A stretch of DNA of 44,290 nucleotides from contig NZ_BIXY01000059.1 of the NCBI RefSeq assembly GCF_008326305.1, forward strand, positions 1 through 44,290, given 5' to 3'. The DNA is from Dictyobacter arantiisoli (lineage in GTDB: Bacteria; Chloroflexota; Ktedonobacteria; Ktedonobacterales; Ktedonobacteraceae). Made by a program: the position numbers and the translations under genes. Under the pieces are notes generated by a model that saw nothing but the letters and a program-made list of their open reading frames with translations, was not told where the DNA came from and searched no databases. Positions 13,040-39,395 of the stretch are shown piece by piece (the stretch's first letter is position 1; each line of letters opens with the position of its first letter).

Positions 13040-13293
13040 TTTTATCTTTTCCTTTTGAAACGCACAAAAGATTTGCATAGCCTTAAAGAATGCCTGAATT
13101 GCAGCGCTATTCTTTCCTGCTGATTATAGTATAAGCGAAGTAGAAAGCAGAATTCGTATTTTTTTAATTAAATGCATAAAGAGAGTTTTTTGTATGCGGT
13201 ATGATAAAAACATACTTTGGTGATATGGTTACAGACTGGATGTAAAAATCAGGTTGAAATCTGATTTGACATTTAGACAAGAGGAAAACTTTC

Positions 13294-14415
13294 ATGATTC
13301 CTATCGCTCATCCTCTGATTGGTATAGAGGAGAAAAATGCTGTGCTCCAGGTATTGGAGTCTGCGCAACTGGCACAAGGTGAGCAAGTGTTGCGCTTCGA
13401 ACGCGAGTTTGCCAGGGCCTGTCAGGTTGAAGATGCGATCGCAGTTTCCTCCGGCACCGCCGCGCTGTATCTGGCCTTGCTTGCACATGGTATTGGTCCT
13501 GGTGATGAGGTGATCACAACCGCCTTTAGTTTTGCCGCGACAGCCAATGTGATTTTCCTGGTCGGTGCGACTCCAGTATTTGTGGATATAGAGTCCGATA
13601 CGTATAATCTTGATCCTGCCTTAGTTGCCAGAGCGGTGACAAAAAAGACGAAAGCCATCCTCCCGGTACATCTCTACGGAAATCCTTGCTCGATTGGTCA
13701 GTTATTGCAGATTGCTGAGGAACATCATCTGACGCTTATTGAGGATGCGTGTCAGGCGCATGCGGCAACTGTTCATGGCAAGCCAGTCGGCGGTTTTGGC
13801 ACGGGATGCTTCTCCTTTTATGCCACAAAAAATATGACCACAGGTGAAGGTGGCATGGTCACGACCAACAATTCCACTGTGGCTGAGCGGGTGCGTTTGC
13901 TGCGCAATCATGGACAGAAAGCACGCTACAGCCACATTGCATTGGGATACAACCTGCGTATGACCGACATTCAAGGCGCGCTTGGTGTGGTCCAACTTAA
14001 ACGTTTGGAACAGATGACTGAACAGAGGATAGCCAACGCAACCTTCTTGACTGAACAGTTACAGACAGCGCTACAAACGCCCGTCGCGCATCCTGAGCAT
14101 CGGCATGTCTACCATCAATACACAATACAAGTGCCTGATGAGCGAGATGCCTGGATAGGACGTTTGCAAGCGCGGGGCGTTGGCAGTTGTGTCCATTATC
14201 CTGTGCCCATCCATCGGCAACCTTTCTATCAAGCACATCCGGACACGTATCGGTGCATAGGTTCTCATGGAACAGCCTCTGCTAGCTATGCGGATGCGCG
14301 CTTACCAATCACAGAAGCGGCGGCACAACATGTTCTATCCTTGCCTGTACATCCTGCTCTCAGTACAGAAGATCTGGCGACGATTGCCAGGGAGGTGCTT
14401 AACCTATGCCATTAA
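13294..14415 (+). CDS. DegT/DnrJ/EryC1 sugar aminotransferase (WbpE-like)
   Basis: This is a 373-residue PLP enzyme. Family landmarks are SSGTAALYLALLA (cofactor phosphate region), TYNLDP, IEDACQAHAA (Asp facing the pyridine ring) and the Schiff-base lysine in SFYATKNMTTGEGGM, followed by RNHGQ. The C-terminal part ends VLSLPVHPALS as usual. The predicted reaction is transamination of a UDP-3-keto-hexuronic acid to the 3-amino sugar, between the oxidoreductase (next gene, overlapping by 10 bases) and the acetyltransferase (divergent neighbour). Sequence alone cannot separate 3-amino from 4-amino specificity; the assignment rests on this neighbourhood. AGAGGAAA lies before ATG 13294. It is the first gene of the long exopolysaccharide run. 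Confidence 0.88.
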   Translation: MIPIAHPLIGIEEKNAVLQVLESAQLAQGEQVLRFEREFARACQVEDAIAVSSGTAALYLALLAHGIGPGDEVITTAFSFAATANVIFLVGATPVFVDIESDTYNLDPALVARAVTKKTKAILPVHLYGNPCSIGQLLQIAEEHHLTLIEDACQAHAATVHGKPVGGFGTGCFSFYATKNMTTGEGGMVTTNNSTVAERVRLLRNHGQKARYSHIALGYNLRMTDIQGALGVVQLKRLEQMTEQRIANATFLTEQLQTALQTPVAHPEHRHVYHQYTIQVPDERDAWIGRLQARGVGSCVHYPVPIHRQPFYQAHPDTYRCIGSHGTASASYADARLPITEAAAQHVLSLPVHPALSTEDLATIAREVLNLCH

Positions 14416-15440
14416 AAGTTGGAGTCGTGGGTGCTGGCACCATGGGTATGAATCATCTGCGCGTCCTCTCTGATTTCAGTGAAGATCAGGCGCGACTGGT
14501 GGGAGTTGCCGAGGCAGCAGAGCCAGCTTTACACAAAGCCATGAGCCGTTTTCATGTCGCGGGCTATACCGATTATCGTCGGATGGTAGAGGAAACCCAT
14601 CCAGATCTTGTCTCGGTCGTGGTGCCTACCAATTTACATTTTGAGGTTGCCTCCTATTTATTAGATCAGGGTATCAATGTGCTGATCGAAAAGCCCATGA
14701 CAAGCACTCCTGAGGAAGCCGCTTCGCTGATTCGCCTGGCACGTCTGCGGAATGTGAAGATTGCCATTGGACATATTGAACGCTTTAATCCAGCCATTCT
14801 CGAGTTAAAGCGCCATCTTCTGCTGGGTGAACCCGGCAAACTCTTTCAATTGCATGCACGTCGTCTGGGGCCTTTTCCTCCGCGTATTCGCGATGTTGGC
14901 GTGATTCTGGATCTGGCTACCCATGACGTTGATATTATGCGGTATCTCACAAATTCTGAGGTAAAGCAGACTTACGCAGAGACGCAACGGCGGATTCACA
15001 GCACGTGTGAGGATTTATTGCTGGGAATTCTGCGTTTTCACGACGATGTGATCGGGGTACTGGATGTCAATTGGCTGACACCAACCAAGGTGCGTGAACT
15101 CACGGTGACGGGGGAGAAAGGTATGTTCCTGGTGAACTATCTCACTCAGGACATCACTTTTTATGAGAACGATTATACTTCCACCTCCTGGGATGCTTTG
15201 CGTTCTCTTTCGGGTGTGAGTGAGGGAACCATGACGCGCTTTAAAGTACAGAAAGCCGAACCATTGCGCCTGGAATATGAAGATGTGTTGCAGGCCATAC
15301 GTACTGATACCCGGCCCACCGTAACGGGCGAGGATGGTCTGGAAACGTTAAAGGTGGCTTATCGTTTACTTGCATCTGCGACCTCCACTGGTGCGATGGT
15401 CGAACAAAGAGAGGTGCAGTATGCAAATAAACACAACTAG
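14406..15440 (+). CDS. Gfo/Idh/MocA oxidoreductase, probable UDP-GlcNAc(A) 3-dehydrogenase
   Basis: The 344-residue protein starts with a Rossmann fold (VGVVGAGTMGMNHLR) and carries the family EKP motif in VLIEKPMTS. Further landmarks are IGHIERFNPAI and the catalytic-region histidine in DLATHDVDIMRYL. The closest functional model is the WbpB/WlbA type, which oxidises C3 of UDP-N-acetyl-glucosaminuronate, supplying the keto sugar to the aminotransferase encoded just upstream. GGGAGGTG lies about 10 bases before ATG 14406. The start overlaps the preceding gene by 10 bases and the end overlaps the next by 20, so translation is probably coupled. Confidence 0.85.
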   Translation: MPLKVGVVGAGTMGMNHLRVLSDFSEDQARLVGVAEAAEPALHKAMSRFHVAGYTDYRRMVEETHPDLVSVVVPTNLHFEVASYLLDQGINVLIEKPMTSTPEEAASLIRLARLRNVKIAIGHIERFNPAILELKRHLLLGEPGKLFQLHARRLGPFPPRIRDVGVILDLATHDVDIMRYLTNSEVKQTYAETQRRIHSTCEDLLLGILRFHDDVIGVLDVNWLTPTKVRELTVTGEKGMFLVNYLTQDITFYENDYTSTSWDALRSLSGVSEGTMTRFKVQKAEPLRLEYEDVLQAIRTDTRPTVTGEDGLETLKVAYRLLASATSTGAMVEQREVQYANKHN

Positions 15441-16824
15441 CTTCGTTTCTGCTCCACTCACCATTGCGGTGGTCGGTTTAGGCAAAATCGGTCTGCCGCT
15501 GGCGGTGCAATACGCCAGACATGGACAGCGCGTGATTGGTTGCGATATCAATCAGGAGGTGGTTGATAATCTGAATGCGGGGCGGTCTCACATCCAGGAG
15601 GAGTCTGAACTGGCAACCGATGTGCCGCGTCTGATACGTGCGGGTTTCTTTTCCGCCACGACTTCGACGCAAGCTGCAGTCTGCGAGGCACAGGTCGTCG
15701 TGGTGATTGTGCCGGTGGCGATTGATGCAGAGCATGTGGTCAATACAGCACACATTGATGCCGCAAGCCGGGCGATTGGCGATGCGTTACAACCTGGCAC
15801 GCTGGTGATCTATGAGACGACTCTACCAGTAGGCACGACATCCCGTCATTTGCGCCAGTTACTGGAACAAACCTCGCAACTTCAGGCCGGGAAAGATTTT
15901 TACCTTGCATATAGTCCTGAGCGTGTCTCGTCTGGCTCTGTCTTTCATGATCTGCGCATGTATCCCAAGGTTGTCGGTGGTATCGATGCGGCCAGCACGG
16001 AGCGCGCTATCACTTTTTATCGCTCGGTGCTGGATGCAGAGATTATCGCGATGGCCTCAACGGATGAGGCAGAGTTTGTCAAACTGATTGAGACGACGTA
16101 TCGGGATGTAAATATTGCGCTGGCGAATGAATATGCCTGCTATGCTGACATGCATCAGCTCAATGTTCATGCTGCGATAGCCGCCGCCAATACTCAGCCC
16201 TATTCGCATATTCACACGCCCGGCGTGGGGGTAGGGGGACATTGTATTCCTGTCTATCCTTACTTCCTGTTCTCAAATCCATTGGATCACGCCCAACCCG
16301 GTCTGGCTGATACTGCGCATACGATGCTCACTTTGCCACGTCAGGCTCGTCAGATCAATGATGGGATGGCAGAATATACGATTCAACGCCTGGAGGAAGT
16401 GGTCGGGCCACTCTACCAGCAATCCGTCTTGTTGCTCGGTGTCGCTTATCGGGGAGACGTACGCGAAACAGCTTTTACCAGCGCTAGATTATTGCAGGCC
16501 GCACTACGATACCGCGATGCTATTGTTTATGCTGATGATGTGTTTTTTAACGAGGATGAGCTGAAAGAGCTCGGCTATACTGCCTTACCTGCTGGCTATG
16601 AGGACCGCATTACCGCTGTCATACTGCAATGTGATCATCGTGCATATCATCACTTCAATTTCTCACCCTTCAGTCGTTGTCAGGTAGTGCTTGATGGACG
16701 CCATGCCCTGCGCCGGGCCGAAATTGAGGCCGCCGGTATGCACTATCTTTCCATTGGAGATGGAACGACTCTTGCCGTAAAAAATGACAATGCACAACGT
16801 TTAGCGAAAAAAACGGTCTCTTAG
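15421..16824 (+). CDS. nucleotide-sugar 6-dehydrogenase (WbpA / UDP-ManNAcDH family)
   Basis: The 467-residue enzyme has an N-terminal NAD domain (AVVGLGKIGLPLAVQYA), the central helix signature EFVKLIETTYRDVNIALANE with catalytic Lys and Asn, and the nucleophile region GVGVGGHCIPVYPYF containing the active-site Cys. The C-terminal UDP-binding domain includes LLGVAYRGDVRETAFT. The reaction is a two-step NAD-dependent oxidation of C6 of a UDP-HexNAc to a uronic acid. Family membership is sure; the choice between UDP-GlcNAc and UDP-ManNAc is inferred from the neighbouring WbpB/E/D-like genes. I chose ATG 15421 (MQINTT), with GAGGTG just upstream, over the longer frame from 15370. Confidence 0.9.
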   Translation: MQINTTSFVSAPLTIAVVGLGKIGLPLAVQYARHGQRVIGCDINQEVVDNLNAGRSHIQEESELATDVPRLIRAGFFSATTSTQAAVCEAQVVVVIVPVAIDAEHVVNTAHIDAASRAIGDALQPGTLVIYETTLPVGTTSRHLRQLLEQTSQLQAGKDFYLAYSPERVSSGSVFHDLRMYPKVVGGIDAASTERAITFYRSVLDAEIIAMASTDEAEFVKLIETTYRDVNIALANEYACYADMHQLNVHAAIAAANTQPYSHIHTPGVGVGGHCIPVYPYFLFSNPLDHAQPGLADTAHTMLTLPRQARQINDGMAEYTIQRLEEVVGPLYQQSVLLLGVAYRGDVRETAFTSARLLQAALRYRDAIVYADDVFFNEDELKELGYTALPAGYEDRITAVILQCDHRAYHHFNFSPFSRCQVVLDGRHALRRAEIEAAGMHYLSIGDGTTLAVKNDNAQRLAKKTVS

Positions 16825-16841
16825 TCGAAGAGCATGAAGTG

Positions 16842-18224
16842 ATGCAACTTGCTTTAGCAAGCGATGATGAGGAGAAGGAGAAAGTGCCACATATTCTATT
16901 TGTTACGCCCTATTATCCACCGGAAATAACTCCGCCAGCCATGCGTATCCATGAGATGGCGCTACGACTGGTGCGCCTGGGGCATCAGGTGACTGTGCTC
17001 ACGACTTTTCCCAACTTTCCTTCTGGTGTTGTCCCGCTTGCGTATCGTGGTCATAGACAGTTACGTGAGCAAAAAGATGGCATTACTATTGTGCGCGTCT
17101 GGAGCTATATCAGTCCCAATCGAGGCTTTTTGCGCCGTATTCTGGCGCAGCTTTCCTTCGGATGTGTCGCCCCTTTCCTTGGGGGGAGCGCCGTCGGGCA
17201 GCCGGATGTGATTATTGTTGAGTCCCCGCCACTTTTTAATGCTATTGCGGGACGCCTGCTAGCTTCCTGGAAGCGCTGTCCCTTTATCTTTACGGTGGCT
17301 GATCTCTGGCCGGAGGTCGCGGTAAAGATGGGTATGTTGCGCAATCGTCTACTCATCCGCCTGGCCGAATGGCTGGAGTGGACGACATATCAACGTGCAG
17401 CGCTTGTCTGGGTTGTCACTGAAGGATTGCGGGCTATCTTGTTACAACGCGGACTGGCTGCCAGCCATATTTTTGTGGTGACCAATGGAGTTGACTGTAC
17501 AACCTTTTGTCCCAGTGTAAAAGCACTGGCTCGGGCCGAGTTGGCTTGGGATAACCGCTTTACTGTATTGTATGCGGGTAGCCACGGTCCTTCCCATGGA
17601 TTAGGGGCGATCATTGATACGGCTGAGCGCTTGCACGCTTGTAAGGATATCCGTATTATCTTAGTTGGCGATGGGGCAGAGAAAGAGGCTTTAATGGCTG
17701 ATGCGCAAAGACGCGGGCTGAGCAATATCACTTTTCTGGACCCGCAACCCTATGAGCGTATCCCGCTGCTATTAGCCGCCTCAGACGCGTGCCTGGCGAC
17801 TGCAAGTAAGGCCATTCTTTTTCAAGGTGTGTTACCCGTAAAGATGTATGAAGCGATGGCTTGCGCTCGCCCTATTATCCTCGCTGTGGATGGAGAAGCC
17901 TGCCGGGTCGCGATTCAGGAAGCTGGAGCAGCCATTTATGCCGAACCTGAAAATCCGGCTGCCATTGCTGATGCCATCCTCTACTTGCATGAGCATCCAT
18001 TTGAAGCTGAAGTACTCGGGCAGCGAGGCCGTGCATTTGTTGAGCAGCATTTTGACCGTAACCAGCTGGTGAAAAAACTCCATCAGCAGATTATGACGGT
18101 TCTGCATAGAAATGATACCACACCATATCATGAATGGCTTGCTGACAGCGCTCCATTCCAACTGCCAGAGACTGAGCCATTGAGTAGCGCATGCGGTTCA
18201 CGCGATAGGGGCAGTGCTATATGA
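16842..18224 (+). CDS. family 4 glycosyltransferase (WcaI/WbuB-like)
   Basis: About 460 residues with a GT-B fold. The N-terminal domain opens HILFVTPYYPPEITPPAMR and GHQVTVLTTFPNFPSG, typical of colanic-acid WcaI/WbuB relatives. The C-terminal domain has NGVDCTTF, LYAGSHGPSHGLG and the donor-site region VLPVKMYEAMACARP, where the usual E-x7-E shows as K-M-Y-E. The donor is probably a UDP-HexNAc or a modified sugar. Start choice is uncertain. ATG 16842 follows the previous stop by 17 bases with little ribosome-site signal. GTG 16884, preceded by GAGGAG about nine bases away, would begin directly at the conserved PHILFVTPYYPP and may be the true start. Confidence 0.88.
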   Translation: MQLALASDDEEKEKVPHILFVTPYYPPEITPPAMRIHEMALRLVRLGHQVTVLTTFPNFPSGVVPLAYRGHRQLREQKDGITIVRVWSYISPNRGFLRRILAQLSFGCVAPFLGGSAVGQPDVIIVESPPLFNAIAGRLLASWKRCPFIFTVADLWPEVAVKMGMLRNRLLIRLAEWLEWTTYQRAALVWVVTEGLRAILLQRGLAASHIFVVTNGVDCTTFCPSVKALARAELAWDNRFTVLYAGSHGPSHGLGAIIDTAERLHACKDIRIILVGDGAEKEALMADAQRRGLSNITFLDPQPYERIPLLLAASDACLATASKAILFQGVLPVKMYEAMACARPIILAVDGEACRVAIQEAGAAIYAEPENPAAIADAILYLHEHPFEAEVLGQRGRAFVEQHFDRNQLVKKLHQQIMTVLHRNDTTPYHEWLADSAPFQLPETEPLSSACGSRDRGSAI

Positions 18225-18919
18225 TCCTTAAACCCCAAAAGACCTTGCTGAAAGAGGTAGGGACAACATGTACATGCGTAAAGCAAGATGAGCAATTCGA
18301 AATGTTCTCCGGCCAGGAGGGAAGAATATCCTTCCGCTATCTCTGCTGGTATTACGCTATGAATGTTTTTTTTGCCAGCCTTGGCCTGTTGTTGTTGCTG
18401 TTGTTTCTCCCATTGCTGGCTGCGCTTATTTATATCGATGCGCCCGGACCGATTTTTTATACGCAGGAGCGCCTGGGATACAAAGGGTCCACGTTTCGTA
18501 TGTACAAGTTGCGTTCTATGTATGTCAGACAAGAGCAGACCGCACATTTTGCCTGGACTGCCCGCCATGATCCCCGAGTGACGCGTATGGGACGCTTGCT
18601 ACGCGCAGCGCATCTGGATGAGATTCCTCAGGTGATAAATATTTTGCGTGGTGAAATGAGCTTGATCGGGCCAAGACCAGAGGTGGCAGATTGTGCTACA
18701 AAACTGGAGGCGCTGGTGCCACGCTATCGTCAGCGTTTACTGGTCAAGCCGGGCTTAACCGGGTTGGCACAGGTTATGCATCACTACGGCGATACCCTCC
18801 AGGATGAAGAGACCAAACTCATATACGATTTTTATTATGTTGAACATCAATCTTTTCGATTGGATGTACTGATTCTTTTCAGGACAATGGGAGAGGTGTT
18901 ATTGCGACATGGAAGGTAG
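18221..18919 (+). CDS. polyprenyl-phosphate sugar-1-phosphate transferase (initiating PGT)
   Basis: The 232-residue protein has one hydrophobic re-entrant helix (about residues 47-75, rich in Leu) and then the monotopic phosphoglycosyl transferase core. That core includes GPIFYTQERLGYKG, FRMYKLRSM, the catalytic Asp-Glu dyad in HLDEIPQ, MSLIGPRPE and KPGLTGLAQV. It transfers a sugar-1-phosphate from a UDP-sugar to undecaprenyl phosphate at the inner face of the membrane, starting the repeat unit. It is the short, PglC-like form without the extra N-terminal helices of WcaJ. The ATG overlaps the preceding stop (ATGA at 18221-18224). The next two genes make a 4-amino-6-deoxy sugar, its likely substrate. 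Confidence 0.9.
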   Translation: MILKPQKTLLKEVGTTCTCVKQDEQFEMFSGQEGRISFRYLCWYYAMNVFFASLGLLLLLLFLPLLAALIYIDAPGPIFYTQERLGYKGSTFRMYKLRSMYVRQEQTAHFAWTARHDPRVTRMGRLLRAAHLDEIPQVINILRGEMSLIGPRPEVADCATKLEALVPRYRQRLLVKPGLTGLAQVMHHYGDTLQDEETKLIYDFYYVEHQSFRLDVLILFRTMGEVLLRHGR

Positions 18920-20117
18920 AAGTGTTTCTCAAGCTGTTCAAGTCAGCAAAAAGTTGCCCCGTACAACCTGGCTTCCGTTTGCGCTACCACATATCACGCA
19001 GGCAGAGATTGATGAGGTTGTGGATACCTTGCGTTCTGGATGGTTAACTACTGGATTAAAGACCAGGCGCTTTGAAAAAGAGTTTGCCCACTATGTTGAC
19101 GTTCCGCATGCTGTTGCGGTGAATTCTGCTACTGCGGCGATGCATCTGGCTCTGGATGCTATTGGTATCCAGGAAGGTGATGAAGTCATTGTGCCCGTCT
19201 ATACGTTTACTGCTACTGCTGAAGTCGTGATCCATTGTCGGGCGCATCCAGTTTTTGTCGATGTTGATCCTATAACCTGCAATCTAGATCCGCTTCAGCT
19301 CGAAAAGAGCATCACCGCTCGTACGCGGGCCATCATTGTAGTGGATATTGCAGGCCTCCCTGCCGAGATGGACGCGATTCGGGTTATCGCGGAATCTCAT
19401 GGCCTGCCAGTGATTGAAGATGCTGCGCATGCCTTCCCTGCCTCATATCGAGGACAGCGCGTAGGCTCTATCAATGAATTGACGGCATTTAGTTTCTATG
19501 CCACCAAGACCCTGACCACCGGTGAAGGAGGCATGCTGACCACGGCGAATCCTGAATATGCACAGCGGGCCGCTGTGATGGCGTTGCATGGTATTAGCCA
19601 TGATGCCTGGAAACGCTATGCCGCCGGTGGTTCCTGGTATTATGAGGTTGTAGATGCAGGTTACAAGTACAACATGACCGACATTGCTGCATCCCTGGGA
19701 TTACACCAACTGGCTCGTAGCACCTGGCTTTTGCAACGACGTCAGGAAATCGCTCAGCGTTACACACTGGCTTTTTCCTGTGTGCCTGAAGTCATTACTC
19801 CTCCGAATCCCATCCATTGCGTTCATGCCTGGCACCTGTATCTGCTTCGTTTACGGCTCGAAAGCCTCAACATCACGCGCGCGGCTTTCATTCAGGCTAT
19901 GGCGGAAACACAGATCGGGACGAGTGTTCATTTCATCCCGTTGCATATCCAACCTTTTTATCGTGACCGCTACCAGTTGACCCCAGAATCTTTTCCTGTC
20001 GCATTCCAGGCATATCAACAGGCTGTTTCTCTCCCTATCTATCCCGGCATGACTGATGAGGATGTCTCGGACGTCATCGAAGCAGTGACTGACATCATAA
20101 AAGCATCCAAAAAGTGA
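18909..20117 (+). CDS. second DegT/DnrJ/EryC1 aminotransferase (UDP-4-keto-6-deoxy-HexNAc type)
   Basis: The 402-residue PLP enzyme has the opening LPFALPHITQAEIDEVVDTL and SGWLTTGLKTRRFE, typical of 4-aminotransferases such as PglE, ArnB and PseC. Other landmarks are NSATAAMHLAL, IEDAAHAFPA and the lysine in SFYATKTLTTGEGGM. With the 4,6-dehydratase encoded next it would produce UDP-4-amino-4,6-dideoxy-HexNAc. No second acetyltransferase is present in the window, so the amine may stay free. The start overlaps the transferase gene by 11 bases. No strong ribosome site is visible, consistent with translational coupling. Confidence 0.87.
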   Translation: MEGRSVSQAVQVSKKLPRTTWLPFALPHITQAEIDEVVDTLRSGWLTTGLKTRRFEKEFAHYVDVPHAVAVNSATAAMHLALDAIGIQEGDEVIVPVYTFTATAEVVIHCRAHPVFVDVDPITCNLDPLQLEKSITARTRAIIVVDIAGLPAEMDAIRVIAESHGLPVIEDAAHAFPASYRGQRVGSINELTAFSFYATKTLTTGEGGMLTTANPEYAQRAAVMALHGISHDAWKRYAAGGSWYYEVVDAGYKYNMTDIAASLGLHQLARSTWLLQRRQEIAQRYTLAFSCVPEVITPPNPIHCVHAWHLYLLRLRLESLNITRAAFIQAMAETQIGTSVHFIPLHIQPFYRDRYQLTPESFPVAFQAYQQAVSLPIYPGMTDEDVSDVIEAVTDIIKASKK

Positions 20118-20172
20118 AAAAGTAGTAAAAGTACATTCGTGTGTTAGTAGAGATAAGTATAGGTGGATGATG

Positions 20173-21312: not shown

Positions 21313-21375
21313 TTGTCAGGCGCTGACAATCAATTTTTAGGCTCTGGAACAGCGCAATTTGAAGGAGATGATGTA

Positions 21376-23091: not shown

Positions 23092-23153
23092 GTATGCTAC
23101 GCTCTGCTATGGATGGAGTTTGGGAAGAATGGAAAAGTTGGGAGGTGGTAAAG

Positions 23154-25695: not shown

Positions 25696-25772
25696 CTGGG
25701 GTCTGGGGCTGTGCCCCAGTCTCTCACCCATTCCTGCCGCTGCAGGCGGCACTCCTTCAAATGAAGAGTAAC
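25646..25772. mobile_element. 127-bp palindromic MITE-like element overlapping the epimerase 3' end
   Basis: GTTACCGTTCATTTGAA (25646-25662) and TTCAAATGAAGAGTAAC (25756-25772) are terminal inverted repeats matching at 15 of 17 positions. Inside are further GC-rich hairpins: GGGGCAGCAAGCCCC and CTGGGGCTGTGCCCCAG. The left half runs into the coding sequence and provides its stop codon. No transposase lies inside. It could also act as a terminator or RNA-stability element within the operon. Confidence 0.55.
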
Positions 25773-25806
25773 AGACCACTAGAGATTGTAGCAAAGGGAA
25801 ATTAGC

Positions 25807-28578
25807 ATGAATATATTGGAAAAGCAGAGATTAACGACTATGGAAGCATTGCCTCTCGTGCTTGAGCAGTCGGAGGGACAGGTCTCAGAGATGTGGCGAT
25901 TTATCAAATCTTCAGGCGTATATGCTCTGGCCTCAGTAGTAACCCCTTTCATCTCTCTGCTACTGGCGCCATTTTTGACCCATATCCTTTCGACAACTGA
26001 TTATGGCATCCTCACACTCCTGAATACGATCATTGGACTGGTCGCGGGCGTCACACAACTTGGCATGGGGGCTGCCTTTTTTCGCGCCTATAATTATGAC
26101 TATACCACGCAGAGTGAGAAGCGTTGTGTCATATCTACTATGACCGTCTTGCTCTTTTTGTCCTCCCTCCTGACCATCATCGGGACAGTCAGTGCGGCTC
26201 CTTTCTTAGCCAGCCATTTACTCCAGCATGCTTCACAAAGCAGGCTGATTATCATCGCTGCTGGTGTCATCTGCGTTCAGAACCTTGCGGTGCCCAGTTT
26301 TGCCTGGTTGCGGGCCGAAAGCCGCGCTTTGTTCTACTCGTTGCTCTCGATTGGCAATATGCTCACCATGCTGCTGGCGAATATTGTGCTGGTCGGTTTT
26401 TTGCATCAGGGTATTGCAGGTTCTTTGCTGGCAACGGGAGTTGGCTATAGCTGTGTCGTGCTGTTTACCCTCTCAATGATCATTTTTCGCGTAGGAATAC
26501 GGGTACGCCTGGATATTGCCCACAATCTGTTAGGCTTTGGTATGCCCCTGATTATCAGCGTGGTCTCCTACTGGATATTACAACTCTCAGATCGTTATCT
26601 GCTGAGCCGTTTAAGTTCGCTGGCCGAGACGGCCAGGTATGGCGTTGCTTATACGCTGGGGACAGTGATTTCCGTGGTGATCATGGGACCATTTACGCTG
26701 GCGTGGCCCAAAACGATGTTCTCGATTGCCAGAAGTAAAAATGCAGCCCATATTTTCCAGATGGTGTTTCGGTGGTTTGGATTGTTCCTTTTGCTCAGTG
26801 CCTTCAGCCTGTCCAGTCTGGGCATCCTCCTCCTGCACTGGTTTTTCCCTGTCACCTATTCCTCGGCTGCCTTTGTTATTCCTATCGTGTCAGTTTCGAT
26901 TGTCTTTTATGGTATCTATCATTTTTTTATGATTGGGGCTAATATCCAGCGCAAGACCTGGATGAATAGCGTGTTTACGACGCTGGCAGCAGTGGCTAAT
27001 CTACTCCTGAACCTATGTCTGATTCCGCGCTATGGAGCTATGGGAGCGGCGCTGTCAACCTTGATTGCCTATATTGTATTGGCGCTGTCGGCGTATATCG
27101 TCAATCAAAAGATTTATCCCATTGCCTTTGAAATGGGACGTTTTGTGCTGGCGCTCTTGCCCGGTGTGGCACTCTATCTGGGCAGCAGCCTGCTGGTTCG
27201 ACGGCAGGGAATCTATCTTACTGTGGGAATAGATAGTCTGAGCGTTATGCTCTATGCGCTTATCCTGCTTGTGGTTGGCTTGTTTCCAGCTAAGGCGCAG
27301 CACGCCAGTTATAAAGCTAGCCGGGATGTTGCGCTAAGTAAGTATCAGCCCGTAGATATGTCTGCGGATGAGGTTTTCCAGCAGCAAACATTGCTGGTCG
27401 GCAGGCAGATTGTGATGCACATCCGGGGCTCTGTACGGTCTGACATGCGCGTGTTGCGCGAGGCGACTGCGCTGGTTCAGGCAGGATGCACCGTCACCAT
27501 TGTGGATATAGAAGGCGTGCGCACCTGTCCCGCGCATGAAGTAAGAATGGGTATCCATATCGAGCATCTCTTTCCTATACAGTCAATGTGGCCGTTGTTG
27601 CGGACTCCATTCAAAGTACGCCTGCTTCTCTACAGCGTCTACCGCTTGTTGACTATCAGGGCTGATGCGTATCATGCACATGACATCTCGGCACTTCCCG
27701 CCTGCTATATTGCGGCACGTTTACGACAGAAAGCGCTCATTTTCGATGCTCATGAATTACCGATGTCAAACATGTCGCCCCATTGGAGGCGTTTTAGCTG
27801 GATATTCAAAGGTCTGCTGACACATATTTTGCCGCGCTGCGCCGGAGTCATTACGGTCTCCCCACCTATCGGGCAGGCTCTATGTGCGCTGTATCATGCG
27901 CCAGAGATAACCCTGGTGCGCAACTTTCCGACCTATCAAGAGGTTACAAGAAGTGACCGTTTACGGCAACGGCTTGGATTGGGACCAGAGGCACGGATTG
28001 TGCTCTATCAGGGGAATATTCAGGCTGATCGCAGTCTGGAAATGCTGGTTATGGCGGCTCCTTTTCTGAAGCCTGATACCGTGATTGTTCTGCTGGGCTG
28101 GGCCGATGAAGCCACACGCCAGCAATTGGATGACCTGATAGCGCGTGAAGAGATGCAGGAGCATGTCAAAATCCTGCCTGCCGTGCCTTATGAGGAGTTG
28201 TTGCAGTGGACCGCTTCAGCCGACATTGGGCTGGTGCTCTTTTCCCCTGATTATTCATTGAGCATTCGCTGGTGTCTGCCCAACAAGCTCTTTGAATATC
28301 TTATGGCGGGCTTGCCAGTGCTGGCATCTTCCCTGGATGCGGTCGAAGCAATGCTCAGGGACTACGAAGTGGGGCAGATTGTCCCCTCACTGTCTCCTGC
28401 TGAGATTGGTGTGGCGATTGAAGCTATGCTGGCAGATCGCACTACCCTTGAGCGTATGCGGGCTAATGCGCTGTCAGCCGCACGCAGGGATCTCTGCTGG
28501 GAACAGGAACAGTGGCAGGTAGTTCGATTATATCAAAGTATTTTGTGCTGTCCCCTGTCTTCCTCATCCTTATCGTGA
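25807..28578 (+). CDS. Wzx-type flippase fused to a family 4 glycosyltransferase
   Basis: A single open frame of 923 residues. Residues about 30-497 form an oligosaccharide flippase of the polysaccharide-transport (MATE-like) superfamily with 12-14 helices, opening SGVYALASVVTPFISLLLAP and TTDYGILTLLNT as in Wzx proteins. A linker of about 30 polar residues follows. Residues about 530-910 are a complete GT4 enzyme with HAHDISALPACYIA, IFDAHELPMSN, LYQGNIQADRSLEML and the donor-site region PNKLFEYLMAGLPVLAS. The flippase would move lipid-linked units outward, and the GT domain would act on the cytoplasmic face. No stop or frameshift separates them. AAAGGGA lies before ATG 25807, just after the MITE-like element. 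Confidence 0.88.
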   Translation: MNILEKQRLTTMEALPLVLEQSEGQVSEMWRFIKSSGVYALASVVTPFISLLLAPFLTHILSTTDYGILTLLNTIIGLVAGVTQLGMGAAFFRAYNYDYTTQSEKRCVISTMTVLLFLSSLLTIIGTVSAAPFLASHLLQHASQSRLIIIAAGVICVQNLAVPSFAWLRAESRALFYSLLSIGNMLTMLLANIVLVGFLHQGIAGSLLATGVGYSCVVLFTLSMIIFRVGIRVRLDIAHNLLGFGMPLIISVVSYWILQLSDRYLLSRLSSLAETARYGVAYTLGTVISVVIMGPFTLAWPKTMFSIARSKNAAHIFQMVFRWFGLFLLLSAFSLSSLGILLLHWFFPVTYSSAAFVIPIVSVSIVFYGIYHFFMIGANIQRKTWMNSVFTTLAAVANLLLNLCLIPRYGAMGAALSTLIAYIVLALSAYIVNQKIYPIAFEMGRFVLALLPGVALYLGSSLLVRRQGIYLTVGIDSLSVMLYALILLVVGLFPAKAQHASYKASRDVALSKYQPVDMSADEVFQQQTLLVGRQIVMHIRGSVRSDMRVLREATALVQAGCTVTIVDIEGVRTCPAHEVRMGIHIEHLFPIQSMWPLLRTPFKVRLLLYSVYRLLTIRADAYHAHDISALPACYIAARLRQKALIFDAHELPMSNMSPHWRRFSWIFKGLLTHILPRCAGVITVSPPIGQALCALYHAPEITLVRNFPTYQEVTRSDRLRQRLGLGPEARIVLYQGNIQADRSLEMLVMAAPFLKPDTVIVLLGWADEATRQQLDDLIAREEMQEHVKILPAVPYEELLQWTASADIGLVLFSPDYSLSIRWCLPNKLFEYLMAGLPVLASSLDAVEAMLRDYEVGQIVPSLSPAEIGVAIEAMLADRTTLERMRANALSAARRDLCWEQEQWQVVRLYQSILCCPLSSSSLS

Positions 28579-28644
28579 AGCCTTCTATAGGTATAGTGTC
28601 GTCGGGCTTTTGGGCAGTGTGAAAAAGAGTATTTTGGAGATACG

Positions 28645-29709
28645 ATGCGCATCCTCTCAGTCCATAACATTAATAATATTGCCAGTACCTATGCCAGAGA
28701 ACTCGCGCAGCGGGGCCATACTACTGCGGTCTATGAGCCGGATCAGCGTGGTGCTGGTGCTCGGTTACCGATCAAGGTATCCCTGTTACCATGGCGTGCC
28801 CTGACGATGGCGCGTGCGGCTTCCCAATTCCGCGCCAGGCATTTTGATCTGGTACATATCCACTGGGCCAGTTATGGTGTATTCAGTACCTTTAGTGAGA
28901 TTCCCGTTGTGATCCATTGTCATGGCTCTGATGTACGGGAGCGTCTCTCGCATCCATTGTTCGGTCGCGTGCTGACCAGAACCTTCGCGCAGGCTGCCGC
29001 AGTTCTCTGTATCACGCCTGATCTGTTACCGGTGGTGCGTAGTGTACGCCCCGATGCTATTTTCTCGCCTGCGCCCATTGATACCGCGCACTTTCTACCA
29101 GAGCAGATCGTCGCCGGGAGGGCAGCCCGGCCCTGGACAATCCTGCTCTTTGCGCGTCTGGACCCCCAGAAAGGATCTGAAGTTGCCCTGGCTGGGATTG
29201 CAAAATTTACTCGCCACCATCCCGATGTGCGGGTGCGCCTTCTCGATTGGGGGCCCTTGAAGGAACATTACAGACAGCAATATGGAGGGCAATATGAGTT
29301 TGTGCCGCTGGTCCCTCCGGCGCAGGCCCAGCGCTTGATCGTAGCAGCGGATGTCATTGTGGGCCAGTTTGTGTTGGGCTCTCTGGGATTGGCTGAACTA
29401 CAGGCGATGAGTTGTGCCAAACCGGTCATTTGCTCCTTTCGCTATCGAGATGCCTATCCTCTACCTCCACCATTGTGTCAGGCCATGACGGCTGATGAGG
29501 TAGAGGCACAGCTTGAGCACCTTTATCAGCATCCAGCGCAAGCCAGTATCCTGGGACAGCGGGCACGGCAATGGATTAGCAGTTATCACAGTAGCAGCGC
29601 GCTTTCAGATGAGTTGGAATTACTCTATCATGCGCTCTTGCGACACACAAGTGTCGCAGGGGTTTTGCGTGGAGGGAGGCAAGAAGGAGGAATATGGAGA
29701 AACAAATAG
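28645..29709 (+). CDS. family 4 glycosyltransferase
   Basis: A 354-residue GT-B enzyme. The acceptor half begins MRILSVHNINNIASTYAREL, with FDLVHIHWASYG and VVIHCHGSDVRERL. The donor half has ILLFARLDPQKGSEVAL and the pattern GQFVLGSLGLAELQAMSCAKPV, where the E-x7-E of GT4 appears in altered form (G-S-L-G-L-A-E-L-Q-A-M). It should add one sugar to the growing lipid-linked unit; donor and linkage cannot be told. GGAG lies upstream of ATG 28645, 66 bases after the flippase fusion. The stop overlaps the methyltransferase gene by 16 bases. Confidence 0.85.
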   Translation: MRILSVHNINNIASTYARELAQRGHTTAVYEPDQRGAGARLPIKVSLLPWRALTMARAASQFRARHFDLVHIHWASYGVFSTFSEIPVVIHCHGSDVRERLSHPLFGRVLTRTFAQAAAVLCITPDLLPVVRSVRPDAIFSPAPIDTAHFLPEQIVAGRAARPWTILLFARLDPQKGSEVALAGIAKFTRHHPDVRVRLLDWGPLKEHYRQQYGGQYEFVPLVPPAQAQRLIVAADVIVGQFVLGSLGLAELQAMSCAKPVICSFRYRDAYPLPPPLCQAMTADEVEAQLEHLYQHPAQASILGQRARQWISSYHSSSALSDELELLYHALLRHTSVAGVLRGGRQEGGIWRNK

Positions 29710-30425
29710 AGGTGGGGCAAGAGCTTGCCCGGCTGGAAGGCGAATATACACGGCGTGCCCATAACAATTACTATGCGGAACGATATAGCTATTTCAATGA
29801 GGCCGCACTGCTCCATATTCACGATCTCGAGCGCCATCTGCTGGCTCTCCTGAAAAAGCATGGCCTGACATCCTTGTTGGATATGAAGATTCTCGATGTT
29901 GGTTGTGGCAGTGGGGGCTATTTGCGGCGTTTCCTGGACTACGGAGCTGTGCCATCCAATCTCTCTGGGATCGACTTGATGCCGCCACGGATTGAGCAGG
30001 CCAAACTCCTGAATCCCGCTATCGATTGGCGCGTTGGTAGCGCCCATCAACTGCCCTATGCGAACGAAAGCTTCGATCTGGTGATGAGCTTTGTGGTCTT
30101 TAGCTCTATTCTAGATACAGCCCTGCGCCAGCAGATTGTGGAGGAGATGTGGCGGGTACGCAAGCCTGGTGGCGTAATACTGCTCTACGATTTTTTGTAT
30201 TCTAATCCGCATAATGCAGCCGTACAAGGGGTAAGTATGCGCACCATGAAAGAGCTTTTTGCCAGATCCGCTGTGCGCTTCGATTTTCGTCGCATTACGC
30301 TGGCTCCCCCCGTTTCACGTATGATGGTGCCGCATTCTTACTGGTTGGCGCACACATTACAGCAATGCAGGTTATTTAATACACATATGCTTGGTATAAT
30401 TAGTAGAGACAATGAAAAAGAGTGA
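29694..30425 (+). CDS. SAM-dependent class I methyltransferase
   Basis: The 243-residue protein has the class I methyltransferase fold. Motif I is KILDVGCGSGGYLRRF (about 65-80), an acidic motif II follows in LSGIDLMPPRIEQAK, then SAHQLPYANESFDLVMSFVVF and MWRVRKPGGVILLYDF. It probably methylates a sugar hydroxyl or caps the chain, since it lies inside the polysaccharide gene run and overlaps the preceding GT gene by 16 bases. GGAGG lies just before ATG 29694. The acceptor is unknown; small-molecule or lipid methylation is possible. Confidence 0.87.
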   Translation: MEKQIEVGQELARLEGEYTRRAHNNYYAERYSYFNEAALLHIHDLERHLLALLKKHGLTSLLDMKILDVGCGSGGYLRRFLDYGAVPSNLSGIDLMPPRIEQAKLLNPAIDWRVGSAHQLPYANESFDLVMSFVVFSSILDTALRQQIVEEMWRVRKPGGVILLYDFLYSNPHNAAVQGVSMRTMKELFARSAVRFDFRRITLAPPVSRMMVPHSYWLAHTLQQCRLFNTHMLGIISRDNEKE

Positions 30426-30456
30426 AATCATCTTTTAAAGAAAGAGGTGCAGAACA

Positions 30457-31452
30457 ATGGTTTTTGTGAAGCGTACGTTGAGAGGGAAGCGAGTTCTGGT
30501 GACTGGTGGCGCAGGTTTTATTGGTAGTCATCTGGTTGACCATTTGATCGCAGAAGGTGTCGCAGAGCTGATTGTGGTAGATAACTTTTTTCTGGGTCAG
30601 CGTGCCAATCTTGCAGAGGCATATCGGAAGCTGCCCGGCCTGCAATTATTGGAACTCGATGCAGCGGGCGATGATGTCTTACGCGCAGCATTCTCACGCC
30701 TGGGAACGATAGATGTTGTCTTTGATCTGGCGGTGATTCCGCTCCCCAATTCATTGGAAGATCCACAGTTTTGCTTTGACACGAATGTGCGTATTACTTC
30801 CCATCTCTGTGAATTGTTGCGCAAGGGCTATTTTGGAACGTTAGTCCATTTCTCATCCTCTGAAGCCTATGGTACCGCTATGACGGTTCCCATGAGCGAG
30901 GAACATCCTCTCAAGCCGATTACTCCTTATGCTGCCAGCAAAGCGGCCGGTGATCATCTTGTGCGTACATATGTGGCATCATTTAACGTCGATGCGCTGA
31001 TCGTGCGTCCATTCAATAATTATGGACCTCGCCAGAATGATCAATTGTATGCAGGTATCATTCCAATGTTGCTGTCAGGCGCATTTGGGGGAAATACCTT
31101 TAAGCTCTTTGGCGACGGACGGCAAACACGCGATTATATCTATGTTACAGATACCGTACGGGCTGTGCTGGCGCTTTATGCCTGTTTCCAGGAGCGTGGA
31201 CAGGTGGTCAATATCGCCTCTGGACAGGAGATAAGTATGATCGATCTCAAGACGAAGATTGAGCATATTCTCGGACACCCGATTCCTATGCAGCAGTGTG
31301 ATCCACGACCAGGGGATGTACAACGTCTGGTGGCCGATACCACACGCCTGAAAAGCCTGACTGGTTTTGCGCCACAGGTCTCCTTTGATGATGGACTGGT
31401 CAAAACAATAGAGTTTTACCGCCAGCGTGCCAGTACAATGCAGGGCAGATAG
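30457..31452 (+). CDS. NAD-dependent nucleotide-sugar epimerase/dehydratase (extended SDR)
   Basis: The 331-residue protein has the glycine-rich NAD motif VTGGAGFIGSHL (about 15-26). It also has the catalytic pair in PYAASKAAGDH (Tyr-x3-Lys), FNNYGPRQ and GDGRQTRDYIYVTDTV. These are common to UDP-glucose 4-epimerases, UDP-glucuronate decarboxylases and related enzymes. The substrate cannot be fixed by eye. VIPLPNS stands where many relatives have AQ/AA-x-V-x-x-S. It is likely to supply another sugar nucleotide for the repeat unit. AGAGGTG precedes ATG 30457, and the next SDR gene starts six bases after its stop. Confidence 0.87.
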   Translation: MVFVKRTLRGKRVLVTGGAGFIGSHLVDHLIAEGVAELIVVDNFFLGQRANLAEAYRKLPGLQLLELDAAGDDVLRAAFSRLGTIDVVFDLAVIPLPNSLEDPQFCFDTNVRITSHLCELLRKGYFGTLVHFSSSEAYGTAMTVPMSEEHPLKPITPYAASKAAGDHLVRTYVASFNVDALIVRPFNNYGPRQNDQLYAGIIPMLLSGAFGGNTFKLFGDGRQTRDYIYVTDTVRAVLALYACFQERGQVVNIASGQEISMIDLKTKIEHILGHPIPMQQCDPRPGDVQRLVADTTRLKSLTGFAPQVSFDDGLVKTIEFYRQRASTMQGR

Positions 31453-31458
31453 GAGCAT

Positions 31459-32412
31459 ATGATGCGTCTCTTAGTGACAGGGGCCGCCGGTTTTATCGGT
31501 CGCAATATTTTGCTGGCTGTACCCCATACATGGGAAGTCATCACGCTCTATCGACCGGGCAATACTGATTTCCTCCATTTTTTACAGGAAAAACAGCTCA
31601 GACATATCCAGCCTGTCGCATGTGATCTCACTGATGAGGGACAGGTCAGACAGGCGATGCATCTGACAGGAGGAGCGTTTGAAGCCTGCCTTGCGCTGGC
31701 CAGCAATACCTCTATTCCCGGCTCAATTGAGCATCCCATCCAGGATGCAACGATAAATATTCTGGGATTATTGCACCTCCTGCAATACTGTACCCTTAAA
31801 CATCTGGTCTATCTCTCATCAGGGGCGGTTTATATTGGTCTCAGAGGTGCGGTTGGTCCATTGGCACCGGTTGTGCCAACGTTACCCTATGCCATTTCCA
31901 AACTGGCAGCCGAGCATTATATTCAGGCCTATATTCAGCATCATACCAGCTTACAGGCGGCAACCATTCTCCGTTTTTTTGGCGCCTATGGACCTTATGA
32001 ACCGGTCCGTAAGCTTTATACAAAGTTGGTGCGCCGCTTCGCCTTTGAGCGTAATCCTCACTTTACAGTGACGGGCGACGGAGAAAATTACATTGATGCC
32101 ATGTATGTTGATGATGCCATAACTGCTCTGATGGCGGTCCTGACAGAGCCTGTTTCAGAGGGAGTACGTTGTGTCGATTTAGGCGTCGGCAGCCGTGAAA
32201 GCGTGAAGGAGGTCGTGTTGCGGGCCGCACACACCTTCGGGATCGAGCCTCAATTGCAGTATGAAGGTGTTTCCGCCGAATATATACAATTTGTGATCGA
32301 TCCACGTACCTTTGCGTCCCTGTATCACTTCACGCCTACCATCTCGCTCGAAGTCGGGCTGCAACGTCTGGCGACCCATCTCGCACAGGTAGAGGGTATT
32401 ATGAATGACTGA
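31459..32412 (+). CDS. second NAD-dependent nucleotide-sugar epimerase/dehydratase
   Basis: The 317-residue extended SDR has RLLVTGAAGFIGRNIL at the N-terminus, LSSGAVYIG, the catalytic YAISKLAAEHY, FFGAYGPYEP and GDGENYIDAMYVDDA. The C-terminal domain is shorter than in GalE. It is paired with the SDR just upstream, from which it clearly differs in sequence. This pattern fits two-step conversion of one nucleotide sugar, for example dehydratase plus reductase or epimerase, but the reaction is not determinable here. AGGAG stands before ATG 31459. It overlaps the next gene by 8 bases. Confidence 0.85.
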   Translation: MMRLLVTGAAGFIGRNILLAVPHTWEVITLYRPGNTDFLHFLQEKQLRHIQPVACDLTDEGQVRQAMHLTGGAFEACLALASNTSIPGSIEHPIQDATINILGLLHLLQYCTLKHLVYLSSGAVYIGLRGAVGPLAPVVPTLPYAISKLAAEHYIQAYIQHHTSLQAATILRFFGAYGPYEPVRKLYTKLVRRFAFERNPHFTVTGDGENYIDAMYVDDAITALMAVLTEPVSEGVRCVDLGVGSRESVKEVVLRAAHTFGIEPQLQYEGVSAEYIQFVIDPRTFASLYHFTPTISLEVGLQRLATHLAQVEGIMND

Positions 32413-34627
32413 GTACAGAAGAGACCGGACAGGTCAACGTGAAGTCCTTGGATCTCCTGATCTGCTGCCCTATCCAATCGATCTGTATCCGTTTCTGGAT
32501 ACAGTGAATGGCACTATCATGCAGCCGACTGAGGTCGCACAACGTGCGCTTGCGCATTGGAATGCATACCTTACTGATGGGAGTGATGAGCATAAGGATA
32601 TCTTTCTACTGCATGCGCGCTGGTTACTGGTCCATGCATTGCGCTTCACAGATGATACGAGTGGCTGGCCGCTCCCTTTATTGATACCAACATCTACTAT
32701 TCCGTGCAGGATGTTGTCCGCCCTGGTGCAGGGAAATGGGCTCTCTGTGCTTGTACGTGCCTATCAGTTTACCGGGCAGCGTGCCTTCATAGAGACTGCC
32801 CGGCGCGTCGTACGTACATTTGAGCTTGATATCCTGGATGGAGGGGTCAGTACACCATTGGGTATTGATGGCCTCTTTTTTGAGGAACGGGGCATCTATC
32901 CTGCTACCCATGCATTATGCGGTTGTATGATGGCGCTCTGTGGACTCTATGATTATGACGCTATCGTCAAGGATGACCAGATAACTTCTCTGATCGCAGC
33001 TGGTCTCAGCGGGCTACAGGCTGTCCTGGATGAGTTCGATACAGGCTATTGGACCTATACCGATCTTTTGCATAAGCGCCTTGCCCCTCCATCCCTGCAT
33101 ACCCTGCACATTCTCCTTCTCGACGTGCTGGCCTCATATTCTGGCTGTGAGCAATATACCAAACTGGCGGCGCGCTGGAAGATGTATCAATCCAGCAGCA
33201 AAGCGTGTCTCCGTTCTCTGATCAGGGGCCACATCACAAGTTGTTATGAGCGTAGCCTCAAACCCATCCTACAGCGTATAGCCCACCACCAGCGCGCTCG
33301 CTCCCAATCTTCCCCGATCACTGATCCAGCTCTCACTCTTGAGCAGATCTGTGTCCCGATTCAGGCGTTTCCCATTCCAGGTGGCATGAAGAGTGTCCTG
33401 GCTGGCGTGGCGAGGGCCATGCGTCATCAATGGCAGATGACATATCTAACAAACCAGCGTGGACAGGGGATCGATTCCCTGCTGATCACACAATTTGGCT
33501 ATGGTCGAGCAACGTCTCCCTGGCAATTTCCCGGCGTCTGGTTGTATTGCTTGTGCGGAGGATATACGCTATTCCATTGGTTGCGTCGTCATGCTGATGT
33601 GCGTCTCGTTCTGCCACAGGATGGTCTATATACCGCTGCGTTTGCGGCACTGGTGGGGAAGTGTATGGGCGTGCGCGTGGTATGTATGGATCATGGCAAT
33701 GTAACGCATCTTGAGAACGCGACTTTTCGCGCTGAAAGAATGCAGGCTATCAAGGCTTATCCCAGAGCACGACAATGGCTGGCGCGCTTACAGTTTCTGT
33801 GTTACTGGCCTTCGTTGCGCCTGCTGGCGCGGTTAGCAACATCGCGAATCGATCATTTTCTTGTGGCTGGTGATGAGGTTGAGGCGGTCTATCGTCAATG
33901 CCTGGGAGTGAGCGCGAGCCGTATCACGCGTTACGCTTATATGGTTGATGTGGCACACTTCGTTCCACCTGATCGAGACACGCGGGCCAGCATACGTGCC
34001 GCTCAGGGATTGAGCGAAGACGCCATTGTGATTACTCTGATCAATCGTCTGGCCTTAGAGAAAGGGCTGTCCTTCGCGCTGGAAGGCATCGCCCTGGCAA
34101 TCGCAGCACTTGCTCCGGCTGTACGCCAGCGTGTCAATGTACTGATCGCTGGCACTGGCCCTTTGCAATCCCAGATGAGAGCAGATATCACACGTTATGA
34201 TTTGGATAGCGTGTGTACCCTCTGGGGTGAAGCTGGAGCAGCGGATGTTATCATGCTCCTGGGCATCACCGATATCTTTCTGTATAGCGGTACACGGGGC
34301 ACGAATTACTCGATGGCTGTGCTCGAAGCCATGGCTGCTGGCTGTGCGGTTGTCGCATCCACTGCTCCACAATCCAACCTGCGCCTGCTAGCGGAAGGAC
34401 GTGGCTGCTCTGTTTTTCCTGCCGATGCGCAGGGCATCGGAACATCCCTTGCACATCTCTGCAATAATCCACTGCTTTGTCGTCAGATGGGACAAGCTGC
34501 GCGAGCATATGTTGAACTGTACCATAGTGCTGCGATGTTGAAACGGACACTTCTACGGATATCCCACTTCATTCCGACGCTAAGCGAAGTATCCTCTCCT
34601 CAATTGCATGGAGAGCAAATAGATTAA
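32405..34627 (+). CDS. C5-epimerase-like domain fused to a family 4 glycosyltransferase
   Basis: A 740-residue single frame. Residues about 20-290 form a glucuronyl C5-epimerase domain collinear with the protein encoded at 24598 (ALAHWNAYL, LVQGNGLSVLVRAYQFTG, FFEERGIYPATHALCG, GLYDYD, DTGYWTYTDL). Two of the three conserved tyrosines are replaced: Cys174 and Thr219 stand for Tyr220 and Tyr265 of the paralogue, and the YDLR arginine is lost. The domain may therefore be a substrate-binding relic. Residues about 310-735 are a GT4 enzyme (PIPGGMKSVL, MDHGNVTHLENATF, INRLALEKGLSFALEGI, MAVLEAMAAGCAVVAS). It starts inside the previous gene and ends the polysaccharide run, its stop overlapping the convergent gene. 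Confidence 0.85.
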   Translation: MTEYRRDRTGQREVLGSPDLLPYPIDLYPFLDTVNGTIMQPTEVAQRALAHWNAYLTDGSDEHKDIFLLHARWLLVHALRFTDDTSGWPLPLLIPTSTIPCRMLSALVQGNGLSVLVRAYQFTGQRAFIETARRVVRTFELDILDGGVSTPLGIDGLFFEERGIYPATHALCGCMMALCGLYDYDAIVKDDQITSLIAAGLSGLQAVLDEFDTGYWTYTDLLHKRLAPPSLHTLHILLLDVLASYSGCEQYTKLAARWKMYQSSSKACLRSLIRGHITSCYERSLKPILQRIAHHQRARSQSSPITDPALTLEQICVPIQAFPIPGGMKSVLAGVARAMRHQWQMTYLTNQRGQGIDSLLITQFGYGRATSPWQFPGVWLYCLCGGYTLFHWLRRHADVRLVLPQDGLYTAAFAALVGKCMGVRVVCMDHGNVTHLENATFRAERMQAIKAYPRARQWLARLQFLCYWPSLRLLARLATSRIDHFLVAGDEVEAVYRQCLGVSASRITRYAYMVDVAHFVPPDRDTRASIRAAQGLSEDAIVITLINRLALEKGLSFALEGIALAIAALAPAVRQRVNVLIAGTGPLQSQMRADITRYDLDSVCTLWGEAGAADVIMLLGITDIFLYSGTRGTNYSMAVLEAMAAGCAVVASTAPQSNLRLLAEGRGCSVFPADAQGIGTSLAHLCNNPLLCRQMGQAARAYVELYHSAAMLKRTLLRISHFIPTLSEVSSPQLHGEQID

Positions 34628-39286: not shown

Positions 39287-39395
39287 CTTGATCATTTTCT
39301 TTAGCTGGTGCCAGTATCCTGACTGTGCCCATGTGCAAATCCTTGCCTGCCAGAGTGGGAAGTTTACTGGCGATAAAAATGAGGATTTTGAAGCT

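Follow-up and report, generated by a model that had tools for sequence, protein, structure and literature searches.

A stretch of 44,290 nucleotides from Dictyobacter arantiisoli (contig NZ_BIXY01000059.1, positions 1 to 44,290; the window, in what follows) carries at 13294-34627 a polysaccharide locus that encodes two C5-epim_C domains, members of the family of the glucuronyl C5-epimerase GLCE. The first, EPI1, stands alone and, to judge from its sequence, is probably an active uronic-acid C5-epimerase. The second, EPI2, is fused to a GT4 glycosyltransferase and is probably a constrained pseudo-epimerase. Both domains probably act within the cell, on short sugars still linked to lipid, and not on the finished polymer. 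The model as a whole, in which EPI1 epimerises a lipid-linked diacetamido-uronate before export and EPI2 serves as a non-catalytic module for acceptor recognition, has by our estimate a probability of about 0.5. The two genes lie in a draft genome of 7.2 Mb that is 97% complete:

24598-25695, + strand: EPI1, predicted standalone GLCE-family C5-epimerase (PF06662, E=4.8e-43)
32405-34627, + strand: EPI2::GT4 fusion, with C5-epim_C at about residues 1-290 followed by GT4 (PF06662, E=8.6e-30, and PF00534)

EPI1 scores 147.3 bits against the C5-epim_C profile, which has a cut-off of 23.3, and by sequence it lies nearest to human GLCE (6hzz, E=2.6e-19). GLCE is also the top structural match of its AlphaFold model (Foldseek E=4.6e-7; mean predicted local distance difference test score, pLDDT, 78.9), and the helical-domain fold of GLCE is recovered with Z=24.4 against 6hzz, the next fold scoring about 15 (VIA-align). 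At the catalytic positions Glu499, Tyr500, Asn510, Tyr560 and Tyr578 of the human enzyme, a list taken from PMC13308652, a shallow family alignment places Glu, Val, Asn, Tyr and Tyr in EPI1 and Glu, Arg, Cys, Thr and Leu in EPI2. The two proton transfers of C5epi have been assigned to Tyr578 and Glu499 in a review (PMC12834895), and in EPI1 both members of this acid/base pair are aligned and conserved. Glu499, Asn510, Tyr560 and Tyr578 are thus kept in EPI1, and the family to which it is homologous in sequence and fold also includes the GLCE of zebrafish (4pw2) and the enzyme of Bermanella marisrubri. EPI1 differs from these enzymes in the replacement of Tyr500, in the N-terminal β-hairpin, for which no match was seen, and probably in its substrate. 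The substrate and product complexes 6i01 and 6i02 have Phe at 578 in the PDB sequence. The final ~24 codons of EPI1 and the sequence beyond them (25633-25782) form part of a dispersed repeat that contains palindromic stretches (TTCATTTGAA ... TTCAAATGAA). Other contigs of the genome carry at least four further copies, with 93-98% identity over 80-109 bases.

EPI2 retains only the equivalent of Glu499; Tyr560 and Tyr578 are absent, and with them one half of the acid/base pair. An earlier note on this DNA had counted two glucuronyl C5-epimerase domains, of which the 24598 product keeps the Glu499/Tyr578 pair whereas the 32405 product has lost most of its catalytic residues; the note was silent both on this loss and on the fusion to GT4. 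The fusion protein begins straight with the epimerase domain, and both of its domains fold in the model, the GT4 half with PimB' as its best match. Long C5-epim_C::GT4 frames recur across the order in a dozen Ktedonobacterales genomes, which argues against a frameshift or a one-off event, and the fusion is carried by the cultured relatives Dictyobacter vulcani, D. kobayashii and Thermogemmatispora. Decay into a pseudogene is not supported either: in Thermogemmatispora the ratio of nonsynonymous to synonymous substitution rates (dN/dS) is 0.17-0.36 for the tyrosine-less domain and 0.05-0.12 for the GT4 half, which indicates constraint, if less than in the GT4 half. Because it still evolves under constraint, the tyrosine-less domain has some role, and EPI2 is probably a non-catalytic module through which its GT4 recognises the acceptor.

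The catalytic tyrosines are unevenly distributed. Among 19 locus-type copies, both are kept in 5 and both are lost in 14, most of the latter being intact fusions. The five are EPI1, the standalone copy of genome G030, the copies of G041 and G014, which are fusions, and one on a contig labelled Acidobacteria. That G041 and G014 keep both residues in a fused domain suggests that some fusions are active enzymes as well. Each of nine homologues from elsewhere in the Chloroflexota keeps Tyr560 and Tyr578, which makes the loss a peculiarity of the locus-type set. In a tree of the epimerase domain the tyrosine-less copies cluster with weak support (51/63), and the tree therefore does not decide between one loss and several. 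The contig homologues were obtained with an alignment-based scan, a scan with EPI1 alone having given no matches. The Acidobacteria-labelled contig, MNJR01000052.1 (L047, 7554-8867), encodes close homologues of Wzy, Wzx, EPI1 and both short-chain dehydrogenases/reductases (SDRs) of the locus, and may be a misassigned Ktedonobacterales contig; its EPI1 homologue has Thr at the position of Glu499. Two further proteins of the family were seen. Genome G032, of the same order, encodes outside such loci an exported, lipoprotein-like protein whose C5-epim_C domain has both catalytic tyrosines (L043, 6436-7449, - strand), and G132, another member of the Chloroflexota, encodes an N-terminal C5-epim_C domain followed by ~350 residues without a Pfam match (L096, 3429-5399, - strand).

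Some of these observations weigh against EPI1 as an active epimerase. The active-site loop of the model, residues 190-214, has pLDDT <50 and its geometry is unreliable; Tyr500, which is Tyr in most other Chloroflexota homologues, is substituted in every Ktedonobacterales locus-type copy. The latter substitution, the 14 copies that lack both tyrosines, and a helical toroid that the EPI1 model has in common with GH76, AGE epimerases and others would all be compatible with domains that are not epimerases at all, EPI1 included, but lyases, hydrolases or pure binding modules. We consider this quite improbable: EPI1 has the proton-transfer pair (PMC12834895) together with Tyr560 and Asn510, no other structure matches it nearly as well as GLCE, and a lyase in the cytoplasm would be hard to reconcile with a biosynthetic operon.

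The cellular level at which an active EPI1 would work follows from topology. The earlier note had proposed epimerisation of the polymer, while remarking that EPI1 lacks a signal peptide and would have to act before export. The remark is borne out, for no signal peptide or transmembrane segment was found in EPI1 (hydropathy maximum 1.35) and no export signal on either epimerase domain. GT4 enzymes use cytoplasmic nucleoside-diphosphate sugars, and the many species with a GT4 fusion thus have the C5-epim_C domain in the cytoplasm. In the Wzx/Wzy route, by contrast, the polymer is assembled outside, and epimerisation at the polymer level is rejected on both topology and Wzx/Wzy architecture. A cytoplasmic, GT4-fused domain, in an operon with Wzx, Wzy and Wzc, points instead to the undecaprenyl diphosphate-linked repeat unit as substrate.

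Four linked genes suggest which uronate this unit contains. Uridine diphosphate (UDP) sugars are written below with the usual abbreviations, UDP-GlcNAc3NAcA being UDP-2,3-diacetamido-2,3-dideoxy-D-glucuronate and HexNAc an N-acetylhexosamine:

12422-13078, - strand: hexapeptide N-acetyltransferase, WbpD/WlbB-like, predicted last step to UDP-GlcNAc3NAcA (PDB 3mqg, "lipopolysaccharides biosynthesis acetyltransferase", E=3.9e-37)
13294-14415, + strand: DegT aminotransferase, WbpE-like, candidate 3-aminotransferase (Pfam; WbpE structures rank high among the PDB matches but not first)
14406-15440, + strand: Gfo/Idh/MocA dehydrogenase, WbpB-like, candidate UDP-GlcNAc(A) 3-dehydrogenase (NF040723, 322 bits, cut-off 450; co-occurs with the epimerase)
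15421-16824, possible TTG start at 15370, + strand: nucleotide-sugar 6-dehydrogenase of HexNAc type, WbpA/WecC-like (TIGR03026, 304 bits; PDB 4r16, Cap5O)

These homologues resemble the WbpA/B/E/D-like set for UDP-GlcNAc3NAcA; the Wbp/Wlb pathway makes UDP-GlcNAc3NAcA and UDP-ManNAc3NAcA (PMC10622841). Models of UDP-ManNAc dehydrogenase score far above those of UDP-glucose dehydrogenase on the 6-dehydrogenase, and the Gfo/Idh protein is nearest to the UDP-GlcNAc 3-dehydrogenase model. The acetyltransferase gene is divergent and lies directly upstream of the limits that the earlier note gave to the locus; its homologue adjoins the same genes in G030, G013 and G001. Across 47 genomes of the order, a Gfo/Idh marker (>60% identity) occurs in 14 of the 15 genomes with an epimerase domain and in 3 of the 32 without (Fisher p=2.7e-8). 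The sole epimerase-bearing genome without the marker, G043, is highly fragmented, and in all ten genomes that have both on one contig the two are ≤15 kb apart. No PF02350 UDP-GlcNAc 2-epimerase was found in the host genome, which makes a manno precursor unlikely, and C5 inversion would then yield the L-ido isomer.

Clusters elsewhere display related associations. G165 has genes for Gfo/Idh, C5-epim_C (the frame broken on its 5' side), UDP-GlcNAc 2-epimerase, an acetyltransferase and DegT; G406 has a 2-epimerase, C5-epim_C (the frame split), GT4 and a polyprenyl-phosphate sugar-1-phosphate transferase (PGT); and on a Priestia megaterium plasmid C5-epim_C is paired with amino-uronate genes. The association is not universal, since the homologue on a Deinococcus plasmid has no adjacent amino-uronate genes. 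The G165 gene, set between those for Gfo/Idh and 2-epimerase and amid sugar-nucleotide enzymes, is also compatible with a UDP-sugar as substrate, in which case EPI1 would convert UDP-diacetamido-uronate to an L-uronate donor and would not act on a glycan. The residues on which GLCE-type enzymes act, however, are internal ones of oligosaccharides (PMC13308652), and in Ktedonobacterales the domain is usually part of a GT4 fusion and found among glycosyltransferases; we hold action on the nucleotide sugar to be very improbable.

Other points also weigh against a diacetamido-uronate on the lipid-linked unit. The Wbp-type assignments fall under equivalog cut-offs, and other DegT structures outscore WbpE. 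The association statistic is uncorrected for relatedness. Glucuronic acid (GlcA) is available in the host, since the genome also encodes, outside the locus, a TuaD-like UDP-glucose 6-dehydrogenase. EPI1 could accordingly turn GlcA into L-iduronate in a lipid-linked GlcA-HexNAc unit of heparosan- or heparan-like type, the diacetamido-uronate being another, unmodified residue, and GLCE is indeed GlcA-specific in animals and Bermanella (PMC13308652). This possibility seems to us unlikely. The conserved, linked 6-dehydrogenase is of HexNAc type, and the Wbp-like marker accompanies the epimerase both across the order and, together with further amino-uronate genes, in clusters unrelated to the locus. 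As regards a K5-like heparosan capsule locus, neither a heparosan synthase nor ABC-transporter export is encoded among the 16 genes, the rest of the genome not having been searched for them. Of the two polymers suggested in the earlier note, an L-diacetamido-uronate polymer fits the gene associations, and a heparosan/heparan-like one is disfavoured by the linked supply genes, which resemble a route to HexNAc-derived diacetamido-uronate. Diacetamido-uronic acid is the more likely target than heparan-type glucuronic acid. Open-access papers yielded nothing relevant on a GulNAc3NAcA epimerase or on C5-epim_C.

Gene content, the fusion, absent export signals, residue states and the gene association were computed, and from them we infer the substrate, the stereochemical outcome, the order of steps and the role of the degenerate domain. 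UDP-GlcNAc would probably be converted to UDP-GlcNAc3NAcA by the 15421, 14406, 13294 and 12422 products, and PGT and GT4 enzymes would build the uronate into an undecaprenyl diphosphate-linked oligosaccharide on the cytoplasmic face. EPI1 would probably then invert C5 of the uronate, D-gluco to L-ido, on the lipid-linked unit; its residues suggest a GLCE-like two-base mechanism with Glu207 and the equivalent of Tyr578. Wzx would flip the epimerised unit and Wzy would polymerise it. EPI2, having lost the second base, would probably couple GT4 transfer to the uronate-bearing intermediate. That the locus specifies in full a bacterial enzyme of GLCE fold making L-ido 2,3-diacetamido-uronate on a lipid-linked repeat unit, with a GT4-tethered pseudo-epimerase reading the acceptor, is possible but doubtful.

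Known systems resemble this scheme in part. As with the alginate C5-epimerases AlgG and AlgE, the reaction predicted here is epimerisation at C5 of a uronate that belongs to a bacterial exopolysaccharide. Those enzymes act on polymer outside the cytoplasm, unlike the domains of the locus, and their fold differs from that of the GLCE family. Polymer is also the substrate of the known GLCE enzymes, in the Golgi or in vitro, whereas the locus domains are cytoplasmic, and EPI2 departs further from them in its fusion to GT4 and the loss of both tyrosines. The closest functional precedent is Agl32 of Halobacterium salinarum, an archaeal uronate C5-epimerase of N-glycan synthesis that acts on a short lipid-linked glycan before translocation (PMC13308652). 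Agl32 reportedly lacks the GLCE catalytic residues and is structurally nearer to AGE-family epimerases (PMC13308652), and it serves N-glycosylation, whereas the locus here is of Wzx/Wzy type. The supply genes share with the Wbp/Wlb pathway linked homologues of the 6-dehydrogenase, 3-dehydrogenase, aminotransferase and N-acetyltransferase; unlike that pathway, they come with an added GLCE-family gene and without a 2-epimerase (WbpI), none having been found in the host genome.

The setting is that of a Wzx/Wzy-dependent surface-polysaccharide cluster, in which PGT, Wzx, Wzy and Wzc are co-encoded. Calling of open reading frames and Pfam/NCBIfam annotation agree with the earlier note on 16 codirectional genes (+ strand, mostly overlapping or close-set) with sugar-nucleotide enzymes, PGT, four GT4 domains, Wzx, Wzy, Wzc and two C5-epim_C domains; a methyltransferase is also encoded. 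The note had further called for a survey of related genomes, and the same gene set indeed recurs in other genera and families of Ktedonobacterales, which argues against a chance assembly. The remaining genes, all on the + strand, are:

16839-18224, + strand: GT4 glycosyltransferase, WcaI-like (Pfam/NCBIfam; conserved in relatives)
18221-18919, + strand: PGT, Bac_transf (PF02397, E=3.9e-58)
18909-20117, + strand: second DegT aminotransferase, PseC/ArnB-like (Pfam/NCBIfam)
20167-21312, + strand: PseB/FnlA-like protein of the UDP-GlcNAc 4,6-dehydratase family, Polysacc_synt_2 (PF02719, E=1e-105)
21313-23091, + strand: Wzc-like co-polymerase with tyrosine-kinase domain (Wzz and TIGR01007)
23088-24620, + strand: Wzy-like polymerase, Wzy_C (PF04932, E=2e-18)
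25807-28578, + strand: Wzx-like flippase fused to GT4 (Polysacc_synt, PF01943, and GT4, PF00534/PF13439)
28645-29709, + strand: GT4 glycosyltransferase (Pfam)
29694-30425, + strand: S-adenosylmethionine-dependent methyltransferase (PF08241, E=4.9e-19)
30457-31452, + strand: SDR, 4-epimerase/dehydratase-like (Pfam)
31459-32412, + strand: SDR, epimerase/dehydratase-like (Pfam)

Wzx and GT4 form one frame of 923 residues here and are separate genes in the related loci examined. Beside the locus, 34624-35703 (- strand) encodes a 359-residue protein with an N-terminal hydrophobic segment and without a Pfam match, a homologue of which also adjoins the locus in D. vulcani, D. kobayashii and Thermogemmatispora. 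A DUF4012 protein and a GH3 family protein are encoded downstream (37301-40697); DUF4012 homologues lie inside several related loci.

A single characterised bacterial glucuronyl C5-epimerase is named in a 2026 paper (PMC13308652). If the proposal for EPI1 is correct, both the substrate range of the GLCE family and the stage at which its members act would be widened, and the locus would be a testable source of rare L-configured amino-uronates. The pairing of an apparently active with an apparently inactive copy offers a natural experiment on the need for Glu499 and Tyr578, and the cultured relatives that bear the fusion make the polysaccharide accessible to analysis. The model predicts that species with the degenerate fusion only would carry out no epimerisation of the GLCE type.

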